From Parolsenella catena (GTDB lineage: Bacteria > Actinomycetota > Coriobacteriia > Coriobacteriales > Atopobiaceae): 64,000 nt of DNA. The stretch covers positions 248,001-312,000 of the forward strand of contig NZ_AP019367.1 in assembly GCF_003966955.1 (NCBI RefSeq), in the 5' to 3' direction. A program made the position numbers and the translations under genes. Below are positions 40,388 to 45,024 of this stretch, one piece after another (the first letter of the stretch is position 1; the number at the start of each line of letters is the position of its first letter). The notes under the pieces were generated by a model. That model saw only the letters and a list, made by a program, of their open reading frames with translations. It was not told the origin of the DNA and ran no database searches.

Positions 40388-41166
40388 GGTCCGTCGTCTG
40401 CATGAAGGCCGTTCCCTCCACCACCGAGGTCCGCATGGACCCCAAGACCAACACGATCATCCGCGACGGCAGGCAGTCCGTCGCCAACCCCTTTGACACG
40501 GCGGCGCTCGAGGTGGCGCTTGCGCTCAAGGACGAGCTTGGCGGGCGTGTCTCCGTGCTCTCCATGGGAATCCCGGACACGTGTCGGCTGCTGCGCGACG
40601 CCATCGCCCGCGGCGCCGACGACGCGCTGCTGCTCTCTGACCGTGCGTTTGCCGGTGCCGACACGCTCGCCACGTCCTATACGCTGTCGATGGGCCTCGA
40701 TGAGCTGGGCGATGCCGACCTCGTGCTGTGCGGCAAAATGGCGGTTGACGGCGACACGGCCCAGATTGGCCCCGAGCTTGGTGGCATCCTCGGCGTGCCG
40801 TGCGTCACGGGCGTCTCCGAGGTGCTCGAGGCGAGCGACCACCGCGTGGTCGTGCGGCACGACACCGATGAGGGCACCGAGGTGGCCGAGGTGCCGCTGC
40901 CGGCCGTGCTCACCGTGACGAAGGACATCGCGACGCTGCGCATGCCAAGCATCGCGGGCGTGCGCGCGGCGGCGGGTGCCGAGGTGCGTGTGCTCGACGC
41001 GGCAACGCTGGGTGCTGACCCGGCGTGCTGCGGGCTGGCGGGCTCGCCCACGCAGGTGGTTCGCTCGTTCGTGCCCGAGCGCAGCCACGAGGCAGCGACG
41101 ATAGCGGGCACGCCCGCCGAGCAGGCCGCGGCGCTGCTCGAGGTCTTCGAGGAGGTCGCGCGATGA
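40384..41166 (+). CDS. etfB: Electron transfer flavoprotein beta subunit
   Basis: 260-residue EtfB. Family features include MRSVVCMKAVPSTTEVRMD at the start, NPFDTAALEVAL, and the AMP/FAD-loop region CGKMAVDGDTAQIGPELGG. In bifurcating complexes this subunit holds the FAD where NADH and ferredoxin electrons meet. Starts in an ATGA overlap with the FAD-oxidase and ends in an ATGA overlap with etfA, so the three proteins are made in step. Confidence 0.9.
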   Translation: MRSVVCMKAVPSTTEVRMDPKTNTIIRDGRQSVANPFDTAALEVALALKDELGGRVSVLSMGIPDTCRLLRDAIARGADDALLLSDRAFAGADTLATSYTLSMGLDELGDADLVLCGKMAVDGDTAQIGPELGGILGVPCVTGVSEVLEASDHRVVVRHDTDEGTEVAEVPLPAVLTVTKDIATLRMPSIAGVRAAAGAEVRVLDAATLGADPACCGLAGSPTQVVRSFVPERSHEAATIAGTPAEQAAALLEVFEEVAR

Positions 41167-42365
41167 GCGGACTGGTTGTCGACGCTGAGAAGTGCGTGGG
41201 ATGCGGGCGCTGCGTGCGTACCTGCGCCAATGACGGCATCGAGGTCGTGGAGCGGCGCGCCCGCGTGCTCGATGGGTGCGTGAGCTGCGGCATGTGCGTT
41301 GACGCGTGTCCCGTGGGCGCGCTTGCCGTCGAGCGAGACGAATCTGGCGCGGACACGTCCGGCTACCGCGACATCTGGGTGTTCTCGCAGGTGGGCGCAG
41401 ATGGCGTGGTGCTGCCGGTGGCGCTCGAGCTCGTGGGCAAGGGCCGCGAGCTCGCCGACGAGCGGGGCTGCAGGCTCGTGGCGGTCCTGGGCGAGCACTC
41501 GGACGCCGACGACGCGAATGCGCGTGCGCTCGCGGCGGCCGGCGCGGACGAGGTCCTGCGCACGTGCGACGACCGCCTTGCCCATACGGACGTGGAGTGC
41601 TATGCAGCCTGGCTGTGCGCCCTCGCGCTCGAGCGCAGGCCCGAGGTCATCCTCTATGGGGCCACGAACTTTGGACGCGAGCTCGCGCCGCGCGTGGCCG
41701 TGACGCTGCAGACGGGCCTCACGGCGGACTGTACGATTCTCGAGATGGACCGCGAGCGCGGCCTGCTCCAACAGACGCGCCCGGCGTTTGGCGGCAACCT
41801 CATGGCCACGATCGTGTGTCCCAACCACCGCCCGCAGATGGCGACCGTGCGGCCTGGCATCTTTCCGGCGCCTGAGCCCCGCGAGGTGGGCGAGGCGAAC
41901 GTGACCGACGTCCTGCTCGACGCCGCGGTCTATGGCCGCGTGAACGTGCTATCGCGCGAGAAGGTCGGGCAGGGCGCCTCGATCGCGGACGCGCCGGCGC
42001 TCGTTGTGGTGGGCCGAGGCATCGGGAGCAAGAAGGCGCTCGCGCGCGTGTGCCGGCTCGCCGAGCTTCTCGGCGAGCGTCTTGGGTGTGTGTGCGAGAT
42101 CGGCTGCACGAGGCCGGTCGTGGAGGCGGGATGGCTCGACTACTCGCACCAGGTGGGGCAGACGGGCGTCTCGGTGGCGCCGCGGCTGCTCGTGAGTCTG
42201 GGCGTCTCCGGTGCCATTCAGCACCTTGCGGGCATCTCCGGGGCCGAGACGGTCGTTGCCGTGAACGAGGATGCGGATGCCCCGATCTTTGGCGCCGCCA
42301 ACTACAAGGTGGTGGGCGACTGCATGACCGTGGTCGACGAGCTCATCGCCCAACTGGAGAAGTAG
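41163..42365 (+). CDS. etfA: Electron transfer flavoprotein alpha subunit with N-terminal ferredoxin domain
   Basis: 400-residue fusion. Residues 1-60 are a 2[4Fe-4S] ferredoxin with C11, C14, C17, C21 and C39, C42, C45, C49. Residues 65-395 are EtfA, including YGATNFGRELAPRVAV and the FAD-binding C-terminal domain (VVVGRGIG, GQTG, GVSGAIQH). An N-terminal ferredoxin domain is the mark of LctC-type EtfA in flavin-based electron-confurcating lactate dehydrogenases, where lactate oxidation by NAD is driven by reduced ferredoxin. Confidence 0.92.
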   Translation: MSGLVVDAEKCVGCGRCVRTCANDGIEVVERRARVLDGCVSCGMCVDACPVGALAVERDESGADTSGYRDIWVFSQVGADGVVLPVALELVGKGRELADERGCRLVAVLGEHSDADDANARALAAAGADEVLRTCDDRLAHTDVECYAAWLCALALERRPEVILYGATNFGRELAPRVAVTLQTGLTADCTILEMDRERGLLQQTRPAFGGNLMATIVCPNHRPQMATVRPGIFPAPEPREVGEANVTDVLLDAAVYGRVNVLSREKVGQGASIADAPALVVVGRGIGSKKALARVCRLAELLGERLGCVCEIGCTRPVVEAGWLDYSHQVGQTGVSVAPRLLVSLGVSGAIQHLAGISGAETVVAVNEDADAPIFGAANYKVVGDCMTVVDELIAQLEK

Positions 42366-42368
42366 GGC

Positions 42369-42397
42369 GCGGCCCAAAGGGCTCCGACCCCTTTGGG
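42369..42397 (+). terminator. Hairpin after etfA
   Basis: Stem GGCCCAAAGG / CCTTTGGGCC. Sequence resembles the CCAAAGGGG part of the dispersed repeat family; T-tract absent, so terminator activity is uncertain. Confidence 0.5.
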
Positions 42398-42418
42398 CCT
42401 GAGTGCTGCATGGGGGGC

Positions 42419-42488
42419 GGGGGGCGAGGCGCGAGCGAGGCTAAGGGAGATCGCGAAGCGATATGTCCGAGCGAACGCCTTGCCCCCC
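42419..42488 (+). ncRNA. Structured element with conserved 44-nt core, copy 1
   Basis: A 13-bp stem (42419-42431 with 42476-42488, one G-T wobble) encloses a 44-nt core that includes GGCTAAGGGAGATCGCGAAG and an inner hairpin ATCGC-GAA-GCGAT. The same core, two mismatches in 45 nt, lies at 43473-43516 on a stem of different sequence. It sits between the 3' ends of etfA and the GntR gene. RNA nature is inferred from conserved core with changed but still paired arms. Confidence 0.55.
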
Positions 42489-42507
42489 CCGCATCCTCGG
42501 GAAGCCC

Positions 42508-43299
42508 TTAGATCGTCTTTGCGAAGTCGATCCCGTTGCTCGTGTAGGCAACCTCGAGGTGGAAGCGGTCCGCGCGGGCGATGCCGACGCTCGCGAGCAG
42601 TGGTCTGCCGCTGATGTCGAGCGCACGCGTGAACACGCGGATGCCCGGGGTTCCTGCGTCCGTCTCGAGCAGGCTTGCCTCGCGTCGGTCGAGGATGACG
42701 GCCTCGATGCGCTCCTCCGTGCGCTCGGGCAGGGCGTGCGTGCTCTCGGCTATGCGCGTGTAGATGGACGTGTGGAGCAGGTCAGCCTCCTCGAGGCGTG
42801 GCAGCGCCCTCACGGGGCAGAAGGCGAGCTCGTGGATGACCGGCCGGCCGTCCGCAAGGCGTAGGCGGTTCACCTCCCAGAGCGGCTCGCCCTCCTCCAC
42901 GTTGAGGCTGCGCGCCGTTGCCGCGCTTGCGCATATCCTGCTCAGGCCGAGAAACCTCGAGGTCACCACCGCACCGCTGCGCTCGAGGTTTCCTGACGTG
43001 CTTGCCTTGAGGAAGAGCGCGTCGAGCCCGCCTCGGCTCATGGCGCCGTTCACGAACGTGCCCTGGCCTCGTCTTCTGCGCACGTAGCCCTCCTCGACGA
43101 GGTCCTTGAAGCATCGCCTCACCGTGGCGCGCGAGAGTCCGAGGGCGCAGCACAGCTCGGCCTCCGTGGGCAACGGCGCGGACGCGTCGAGCGCCTCCGT
43201 CGCGATGAGCTGCAGGATGCGATGCTTGAGCTGGCGATACAGCGGCGTGGGCGACCCATGGTCAAGCGGGCTTGCCGACAACGTCTCCAGTATGTTCAC
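42508..43299 (-). CDS. GntR-family regulator with UTRA domain (HutC type)
   Basis: 263-residue repressor-like protein. The winged-helix domain (PLYRQLKHRILQLI, TEAELCCALGLSRATVRRCFKDLVEEGYV, RGQGTFV) covers residues 15-85; a UTRA ligand-binding domain follows (LWEVNRLRLADGRPVIHELAF). GTG 43299 is chosen because GGGAGG stands 5 bp upstream; an ATG 60 bp earlier lacks one. Ligand unknown. Adjacent lactate dehydrogenase and nfn genes are possible targets. Confidence 0.85.
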   Translation of the reverse strand: MNILETLSASPLDHGSPTPLYRQLKHRILQLIATEALDASAPLPTEAELCCALGLSRATVRRCFKDLVEEGYVRRRRGQGTFVNGAMSRGGLDALFLKASTSGNLERSGAVVTSRFLGLSRICASAATARSLNVEEGEPLWEVNRLRLADGRPVIHELAFCPVRALPRLEEADLLHTSIYTRIAESTHALPERTEERIEAVILDRREASLLETDAGTPGIRVFTRALDISGRPLLASVGIARADRFHLEVAYTSNGIDFAKTI

Positions 43300-43450
43300 G
43301 AGCGCCTCCCGTCCCCCAAGCCTGTCAGCCAAATTGTACCTATCAACAAGACAATTCAAGCCAAGGCGCCCCCTCGGAGGCGAAAGGCCCCAACATGCGA
43401 GAAGGACGCCTGTAGTCCACCCGTTTCGTGATTGCCTTTCACTCCGTCAG

Positions 43451-43538
43451 CCGTCTGGGGCGGGTCGTGGTAGGCGCGAGGCTAAGGGAGATCGCGAAGC
43501 GATCTGTCCGAGCGAATGCCATGGCCCGCCCCAGACGG
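43451..43538 (+). ncRNA. Structured element with conserved 44-nt core, copy 2
   Basis: A 22-bp stem with three G-T wobbles (43451-43472 with 43517-43538) encloses a 44-nt core nearly identical to that at 42432-42475; the inner hairpin is AGATCGC-GAA-GCGATCT. The outer stem shares no extended sequence with copy 1 but stays paired. It lies upstream of the GntR gene and just downstream of the nfnB terminator. Confidence 0.55.
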
Positions 43539-43550
43539 GTCCTCGAACGC

Positions 43551-43594
43551 AAAAAAGGCCGCCCCCGGAACCCAACGGATCCCAGGGGCGGCCT
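43551..43594 (-). terminator. Terminator after nfnB
   Basis: Read on the minus strand: GGCCGCCCC…GGGGGCGGCC stem followed by TTTTTT. The stem is 43558-43566 with 43584-43592 approximately. Confidence 0.85.
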
Positions 43595-43614
43595 CACAAG
43601 CGACCAAAGGGGCC

Positions 43615-45024
43615 TTACGCCTCCAGCGCCTCCATCATGGAGTGGGCGGCCTTCTTGCCGGCGCCCATGGCCAGGATGACCGTGGCGGCACCGGTGACGA
43701 TGTCACCGCCGGCCCAGATGCGCGGGTCGGACGTGCGGCCGTTCTCGTCGGCCTCGATGTAGCCCCACTTGTTGAGGGCCACGTCCTCGGCGGCGAGCTT
43801 CGGGAACGGGTTGGCGTTCGTGCCGATGGCCGTGACGGCCACGTCGCACGGAATCTCGAACTCGGAGCCCTCGACCGGATGCGGACGGCGACGGCCGCTC
43901 TCGTCGGGCTCGCCAAGCTCCATGCGCTCGAGCTTGACCTTGGAGACGAAGCCGTTCTCGTCGGCCTCGAACTCCAGCGGCGAGACGAGCGGCAGGATCT
44001 GGACGCCCTCCTGCTTGGCGTGGTGGAGCTCCGCCTTACGAGCGGGCATCTCCTCCTCGGTGCGGCGGTAGGCCAGCGTCACGGTGTCGGCGCCGAGACG
44101 GAGCGCGGTGCGGGCCGCATCCATGGCGACGTTGCCGCCACCAAAGACGACGACGTTCTTGCCGTGCTTGGTGGGGGTGTCGAACTCGGGGAACTTCTCG
44201 GCCTTCATGAGGTTCACGCGCGTGAGGTACTCGTTGGCGCAGAACACGCCGGGGAGGTTCTCGCCCGGAACGTTCAGGAACTTGGGCAGGCCGGCGCCCA
44301 CGGCGAGGTACATGGCGTCGAAGCCCTGCTCCTCGAAGAGCTCCTTGGCGTCGGTGATGCGGCCCACGACGCTGTTGTACTCGAACTTGACGCCGAGCTT
44401 CTCCAGGCCGTCAATCTCGCGCTTGACGATCTTCTTGGGCAGACGGAACTCGGGGATGCCGTAGGTCAGCACGCCGCCGCCGGTGAAGAAGGCCTCGAAG
44501 ACCGTGACCTCATAGCCGTTGCGGGCGAGCTCGCCGGCGCAGGCGATGCCGGAGGGGCCGGAGCCCACGACGGCGACCTTCTTGCCGTTGGACGGCTTGA
44601 TCTCGGGGTCATGGGCGAGCTCGGTGGCGTTGTCGCCGAGGAAGCGCTCGAGCTGGCCGATGGCGATGGCGCGGTCCTTGTTGTTGAGGACGCAGTTGCC
44701 CTCGCACTGGTTCTCCTGCGGGCAGACGCGGCCGCAGACGGAGGGAAGCAGGCTCGCCTCGCGAATGATGTCGAGGCCGCCGCCGAAGTTACCCTCGCGG
44801 ATCTTCTCGATGAAGCCAGGGATGTTGATGTTGACCGGGCAGCCCTGGACGCACTTGGGGTTCTTGCAGTCGAGGCAGCGGTTGGCCTCGGCCACGGCGT
44901 CGGCCATGGAGTAGCCACGGTCGACGGGACGGAAGTCCTGCGCGCGCTCCTCGGGAAGCTCCTCGACGTAGGGGGTGCGGGGAGCCTTCATGTTGGGCTT
45001 GTACTTACCGTTTACCTGTGGCAT
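43615..45024 (-). CDS. nfnB: NADH-dependent ferredoxin:NADP+ oxidoreductase large subunit (NfnB / GltD-like)
   Basis: 469-residue flavoprotein of the glutamate synthase small-subunit fold. Two [4Fe-4S] sites are in CLDCKNPKCVQGCPV and CGRVCPQENQCEGNC; the FAD-binding VVGSGPSGIACAG and NADPH-binding VFGGGNVAMDAAR follow. Often annotated gltA/gltD, but the partner gene is the NfnA-type FAD/[2Fe-2S] subunit and no glutamate synthase large subunit is nearby, so transhydrogenation (NADH, ferredoxin, NADPH) is favoured. Overlaps nfnA by 13 bp. Confidence 0.9.
   Translation of the reverse strand: MPQVNGKYKPNMKAPRTPYVEELPEERAQDFRPVDRGYSMADAVAEANRCLDCKNPKCVQGCPVNINIPGFIEKIREGNFGGGLDIIREASLLPSVCGRVCPQENQCEGNCVLNNKDRAIAIGQLERFLGDNATELAHDPEIKPSNGKKVAVVGSGPSGIACAGELARNGYEVTVFEAFFTGGGVLTYGIPEFRLPKKIVKREIDGLEKLGVKFEYNSVVGRITDAKELFEEQGFDAMYLAVGAGLPKFLNVPGENLPGVFCANEYLTRVNLMKAEKFPEFDTPTKHGKNVVVFGGGNVAMDAARTALRLGADTVTLAYRRTEEEMPARKAELHHAKQEGVQILPLVSPLEFEADENGFVSKVKLERMELGEPDESGRRRPHPVEGSEFEIPCDVAVTAIGTNANPFPKLAAEDVALNKWGYIEADENGRTSDPRIWAGGDIVTGAATVILAMGAGKKAAHSMMEALEA

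Follow-up and report, generated by a model that had tools for sequence, protein, structure and literature searches.

Integron attC sites are read as a folded single strand, with a conserved structure and a variable sequence. Among the repetitive extragenic palindromes (REPs), the GTAG- and CGTC-tagged groups lie downstream of genes and frequently form inverted dimers (PMC3733652). The two hairpins described here lie in a 64,000 bp stretch of the Parolsenella catena genome (contig NZ_AP019367.1, positions 248,001 to 312,000 of the forward strand), hereafter the window. They are members of an apparently undescribed dispersed hairpin family that occurs in gut Coriobacteriia and in at least two other bacterial phyla; a literature search of open-access papers, with most subscription papers outside it, gave no description of the family. 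The parts of the two copies are:

42419 to 42431, + strand: left arm of copy 1, pairing over 13 bp with the right arm, one G.T
42432 to 42475, + strand: core of copy 1, 44 nt, CGAGCGAGGCTAAGGGAGATCGCGAAGCGATATGTCCGAGCGAA
42450 to 42462, + strand: inner hairpin of copy 1, ATCGC-GAA-GCGAT
42476 to 42488, + strand: right arm of copy 1
43451 to 43472, + strand: left arm of copy 2, 22 bp, three G.T
43473 to 43516, + strand: core of copy 2, 44 nt, with CTGTCCGAGC
43490 to 43504, + strand: inner hairpin of copy 2, GATCGC-GAA-GCGATC
43517 to 43538, + strand: right arm of copy 2

Positions 42435-42479 and 43476-43520 are identical at 43 of 45 sites, with one A/C and one C/T mismatch, and the full cores (42432-42475 and 43473-43516) differ at three positions. 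The 20-mer shared by the copies occurs exactly twice in the window and in none of 100 dinucleotide shuffles. In copy 1 the 13-bp stem is followed by a small interruption, after which pairing resumes further out. The + strand of copy 2 folds with -69.5 kcal/mol (z -7.5), which none of 200 shuffles equalled; the fold of copy 1 (-48.5, z -2.5, equalled by 3 of 200 shuffles) is less striking. Recomputation thus returned the 43/45 identity, the 44-nt cores, the 13-bp and 22-bp stems and the G-T wobbles of an earlier note on this DNA, and the inner hairpin with a GAA loop that it described is present in both copies. That note had further called the stems unrelated and the core exactly 44 nt long. 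The stems do differ in sequence and remain paired, but some of the innermost pairs are common to copies 1 and 2, so that the stems are not wholly unrelated; they are members of one repeat family. The core length holds for both window copies and is confined to their subtype, in which additional sequence is inserted 5' in the core; it is not a general rule. In agreement with the statement that no named motif was known, a search of Rfam 15 in gathering mode gave tRNAs only and no family for the hairpins, and in E-value mode all matches fell below the gathering scores of their families. A resemblance to skipping-rope RNA was considered and dropped, there being no Rfam match.

The general form of the core was found by reading the weaker matches of a covariance model, built from three copies, in other genera of the same family. 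It consists of GCGAGTTC-[hairpin]-CTGTYYGAGC on top of a long stem, the conserved tip being GCGAGTT, a hairpin of lineage-specific sequence and CTGTYYGAGC. The family motif [C/A]TGTYYGAGC corresponds to the 3' portion of the copy 1 core. The covariance search over Coriobacteriia that the earlier note had proposed thus recovered a dispersed repeat family, and its proviso that the idea would fall if related genomes held no further copies with complementary arms did not apply, as such copies were found.

A loose pattern matched 208 of 396 genomes of the class Coriobacteriia, a figure that includes many single chance matches lying inside genes and having no stem (reversed-pattern control). Tens of genomes of the class have roughly 10-30 matches each, mostly genuine where inspected. 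Many Atopobiaceae-like and Eggerthellaceae genomes carry 4-30 copies each, the named carriers including Gordonibacter, Enteroscipio, Ellagibacter and Paraeggerthella, and copy number is uneven between related genomes. The genome of the window (G000) has at least five copies: the two in the window, those at 962472 and 1451541, and a further one, differing by a single base in the motif, near 1464870. A longer-core subtype with similar arms and additional tip sequence was seen in Gordonibacter (L113, 1690-1821), and halves of it appear to be fused to ordinary-type halves elsewhere in that genome.

Outside the class, one Omnitrophica MAG and one Bdellovibrionales MAG carry the exact type-A core. 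The single copy in the latter (40% GC) sits on top of an AT-rich palindrome of about 37 bp, which makes a stray Coriobacteriia contig unlikely. A stricter pattern matched 12 of 237 Omnitrophota genomes, three of them with 19-24 matches (about 20-24 copies). These three copy-rich genomes have inner hairpins of their own, such as CACAAAAAT...ATTTTTGTG or CAGCTCC...GGAGCTG, while the constant ends are unchanged. Two patterns gave no match among the 2.9 million viral contigs of IMG/VR, and matches on plasmids were due to chance only; carriage by phages or plasmids was therefore rejected.

The reading preferred here, with a probability of a little under one half (about 0.48), is that the family consists of REP/MITE-like, non-autonomous mobile hairpins that are recognised through their tip, in the form of a folded single strand, and that settle in a fixed orientation at gene ends. 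The placement of the copies bears on this reading and on its main rival. The genes around the two window copies are:

41163 to 42365, + strand: electron-transfer flavoprotein alpha-like (etfA-like) gene, convergent with gntR, product predicted from the sequence
42508 to 43299, - strand: GntR/HutC-type regulator gene (gntR), ORF start possibly at 43359
43555 to 43595, - strand: ordinary terminator (hairpin and T-run) of the gltA-like gene, distinct from copy 2
43615 to 45024, - strand: glutamate synthase small-subunit-like (gltA-like) gene, product predicted from the sequence

Copy 1 lies between the convergent ends of the etfA-like gene and gntR, antisense to gntR, and 8 nt separate the outer end of its stem from the stop codon of that gene. 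Copy 2 is found 76 nt beyond the stop codon of the gltA-like gene. In the one genome of the same genus that was compared (G001), one copy matches copy 1 in lying between the same two convergent genes, and a second one lies 75 nt beyond the gltA-like stop. The G001 arms are unlike those of the window yet paired, and those of the copy 1 orthologue form a perfect stem of 16 bp. The orthologue of the window gntR is accompanied in G001 by a further GntR gene in tandem (L002). In the window a separate, perfect 11-bp hairpin without a T-run, GGCCCAAAGGG..CCCTTTGGGCC, follows right after the etfA-like stop codon (42371-42399).

A simple codon-usage gene finder, whose gene calls on the window look sensible, was used to place 101 copies from Coriobacteriia and 55 that came from other phyla, with few exceptions from Omnitrophota; gene products were named from their sequences. 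When a stop codon was found within 40 nt, gene and core ran antisense to each other in 51 of 56 cases in Coriobacteriia (51:5) and in 25 of 26 in Omnitrophota (25:1). The median distance from stem to stop codon was 13 nt in Coriobacteriia and, less exactly measured, about 22 nt in Omnitrophota. Copies occur singly or, often, as inverted pairs with a spacing of about 100 bp. Rods of about 200 nt in G072 consist of units nested within each other. At three convergent sites the orientation of the element is opposite in G000 and G001. Orientation by replication strand, hinted at by the G367 contigs, disagreed with positions in G201 and G167 as judged by eye and was discarded, and a trpS site common to different families was, by a rough estimate, no more than chance.

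The spacing from the stop codon also counts for the main rival, a serious one that is held to be possible but somewhat unlikely. According to it the hairpins are a functional RNA module at gene 3' ends, not mobile and kept by selection, in which the hairpin would end or protect the mRNA and the conserved tip, in gene sense GCTCARACAG-hairpin-GAACTCGC, would bind a conserved factor. Many copies are vertically kept at the same gene across related species, with arms that are rewritten but paired, as such a module would be. A T-run in gene sense, seen as an A-rich left flank (at least five A in 9 nt on the relevant side), accompanies 19 of 153 arms, compared with 2 of 153 for a T-rich right flank. 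Most copies are thus without a T-run in gene sense, separate terminators adjoin some of them, and many related genomes and orthologous genes lack the hairpin, all of which speaks against the module.

The wobble pairs indicate which strand folds. Counting was restricted to interior mismatches flanked by pairs; a reversed bias in the outer arms, obtained in a first count, vanished with this restriction. On the core strand the inner stem has 54 G.T against 3 A.C (24 against 3 as distinct sites), the next pairs outward have 15:4, and beyond pair 18 the ratio is 25:27 with no strand preference; the Omnitrophota total is 29:9. Because G.T far exceeds A.C near the core, it is apparently the core strand that folds by itself, whether as RNA or as single-stranded DNA. 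In Coriobacteriia the strand constraint fades outward from the core, and the tip forms a single unit with the inner stem. A plain terminator is disfavoured by the antisense orientation of the folded strand relative to the adjacent gene, and wobbles on this strand weaken the gene-sense hairpin that the 3'-end module requires. The earlier suggestion of selection on RNA structure, or of a protein-recognised hairpin, is upheld in so far as a folded strand is under selection; the data do not single out a transcribed RNA, since a folded DNA strand fits them as well.

A structured RNA made from the core strand, which could be a small RNA, an antisense RNA or a block to antisense transcripts running into genes at their 3' ends, would account for the inner stem having G.U and not A.C on that strand. 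It would also fit the conserved internal loop and hairpin, and one pair downstream of ispG at which C-G was exchanged for T-A via T.G on the core strand. Nevertheless it is improbable: the intergenic copies in codirectional settings (41 and 40) have no upstream gene reading the core strand, no promoter consensus was found in 42300-43700, and there is no T-run on that side.

The arms change in concert. In the copies downstream of ispG in 29 genomes of one genus, 15 of 27 pairs have changed on both sides and 97% of the cells pair; downstream of folE in 30 genomes of the same genus the figures are 13 of 20 pairs and 96%. These percentages are somewhat favourable, the sequences having been picked by eye among intact copies, and the slid controls gave at most 54% pairing. 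At an orthologous site in Gordonibacter both arms were altered jointly, including a matched change in length. The claim that the arms vary while pairing is kept is supported, and a simple duplication, against which the earlier note had also argued, is excluded. Covariation and the wobble asymmetry would also be expected of a functional RNA. The double changes from C-G to G-C and the matched length changes suggest occasional copying of one arm from its partner.

The same changes are what would be expected if template switching within a palindrome corrected the arms in a functionless family that decays by deletion. Deletion products were seen, and the outer arms have no strand preference (25:27); chimeric and partly deleted copies exist (L200, L203, L167). 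This account is very unlikely, as it leaves unexplained both the fixed tip with the strand asymmetry of the inner stem and the fact that orientation and distance from the stop codon are strict in two phyla. Last, the idea of an operator at the GntR gene, or of a simple tandem duplication there, brought to mind by two similar copies bracketing gntR in the window and in G001, is already refuted and was dropped: the hairpin pair is not tied to that gene, since copies with differing arms follow trpS, ispG, folE, leuS-like and many other unrelated genes in many genomes, and copy 1 itself sits between convergent gene ends.

The preferred reading of a mobile hairpin draws on the multi-copy spread, the uneven copy number, the same core in other phyla, the nesting, the inverted pairs resembling REP doublets and the 51:5 and 25:1 placement. 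The wobble bias of the inner stem, the joint changes of the arms at orthologous sites and the excess of A-rich left flanks also count in its favour. Counted against it are the vertical retention, the lack of a clean insertion, the lack of cores beside Y1 genes and the zero result in IMG/VR. Within G590, G367 and G072 the arms of different copies are alike for 25-40 nt, as recent copying would leave, in G469, G094 and G106 for only about 5-10 nt, and in G426 there is almost no likeness beyond the first two bases outside the core. With arm likeness varying by genome and near nil in G426, the constant unit is the tip. The intergenic regions of genus g33 (L166-L224) are rich in other repeats, such as CGTCCTTCTCGC-like motifs and TTGTGTGCAAAATCTTTGAT palindromes.

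Of 15 copy-rich genomes tested, 13 contain Y1/RAYT transposase genes; no Y1 gene was detected in G201 and G426, although copies are present there. None of 20 Y1 loci inspected had a core nearby, and a RAYT/Y1 transposase as partner was rejected as having no support from these neighbourhoods. Many of the Y1/RAYT genes are flanked by another palindrome, GGGGACAG..CTGTCCCC (loci L417-L429), and a similar one follows folE in G112 and G097 (L202, L207). The genome of the window has two IS200-like Y1 genes with identical scores (G000:C1:123848 and 1230614). Among the orthologous sites compared, with one genome per species, there was no clean new insertion with an empty site; absences were imprecise, being deletion-like or changes of the whole intergenic region. 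No parent transposon with shared terminal inverted repeats was found. For lack of a clean empty site, mobility is argued from distribution, nesting and within-genome similarity.

In the proposed mechanism the tip and inner stem would be recognised as a folded single strand, either single-stranded DNA or an RNA copy, by an enzyme of the host or of a transposon, and the element would land at gene ends with a single orientation. Part of the outer arms would derive from a palindrome or terminator already at the site; templated correction between the arms, together with selection for a stable gene-end hairpin, would keep them complementary, and a settled element could serve as the 3'-end hairpin of the adjacent gene. 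A more specific version, that of a mini mobile element common to the phyla, is doubtful. Here only the folded tip of about 34 nt would be mobile. A single-strand-recognising enzyme would place it, always oriented alike, on the apex of a palindrome or terminator at a gene end, and it could nest within itself.

REP-like hairpins are usually known by a conserved stem or tag; here the stem varies and only the tip is fixed, and at least three phyla share the same tip. This predicts that the internal loop of the tip is recognised by an enzyme or an RNA-binding protein. The family accounts for many gene-end hairpins in gut Coriobacteriia and forms a natural series for asking how palindromic arms remain paired.

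Compared with known systems, the family is REP-like in the broad sense. Like REPs, BIMEs and REPINs, it consists of short extragenic palindromes that are dispersed, lie for the most part downstream of genes, frequently form inverted pairs and have a patchy distribution across phyla (PMC3733652). It differs from REPs and REPINs in that there is no GTAG tag at the foot of the hairpin, the outer ends being variable and identity outside the core being at background in several genomes. Moreover, the arms are unique to each copy with a fixed tip, the stems are longer, placement at stop codons is strictly antisense and the local RAYT genes carry other palindromes. With the CGTC REPs it shares dispersed palindromes without a dedicated transposase (PMC3733652), but in the flanks checked there is no constant CGTC end, and the organisation of stem and loop differs. 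The MITEs NEMIS, ERIC, RUP and Nezha are likewise short non-coding repeats near genes that form stable hairpins; in the present family most genomes appear to lack conserved terminal inverted repeats, and the fixed part is central while the ends vary. Intrinsic terminators resemble it as GC-rich hairpins right after stop codons; the family differs from them in its complex conserved tip, its nested rods of up to 200 nt and the restriction of a T-run to a minority of copies. Compared by description, from general knowledge, integron attC sites have their conserved region at the base, whereas here it is apical, and the hairpins of the family are dispersed with no cassette array seen.
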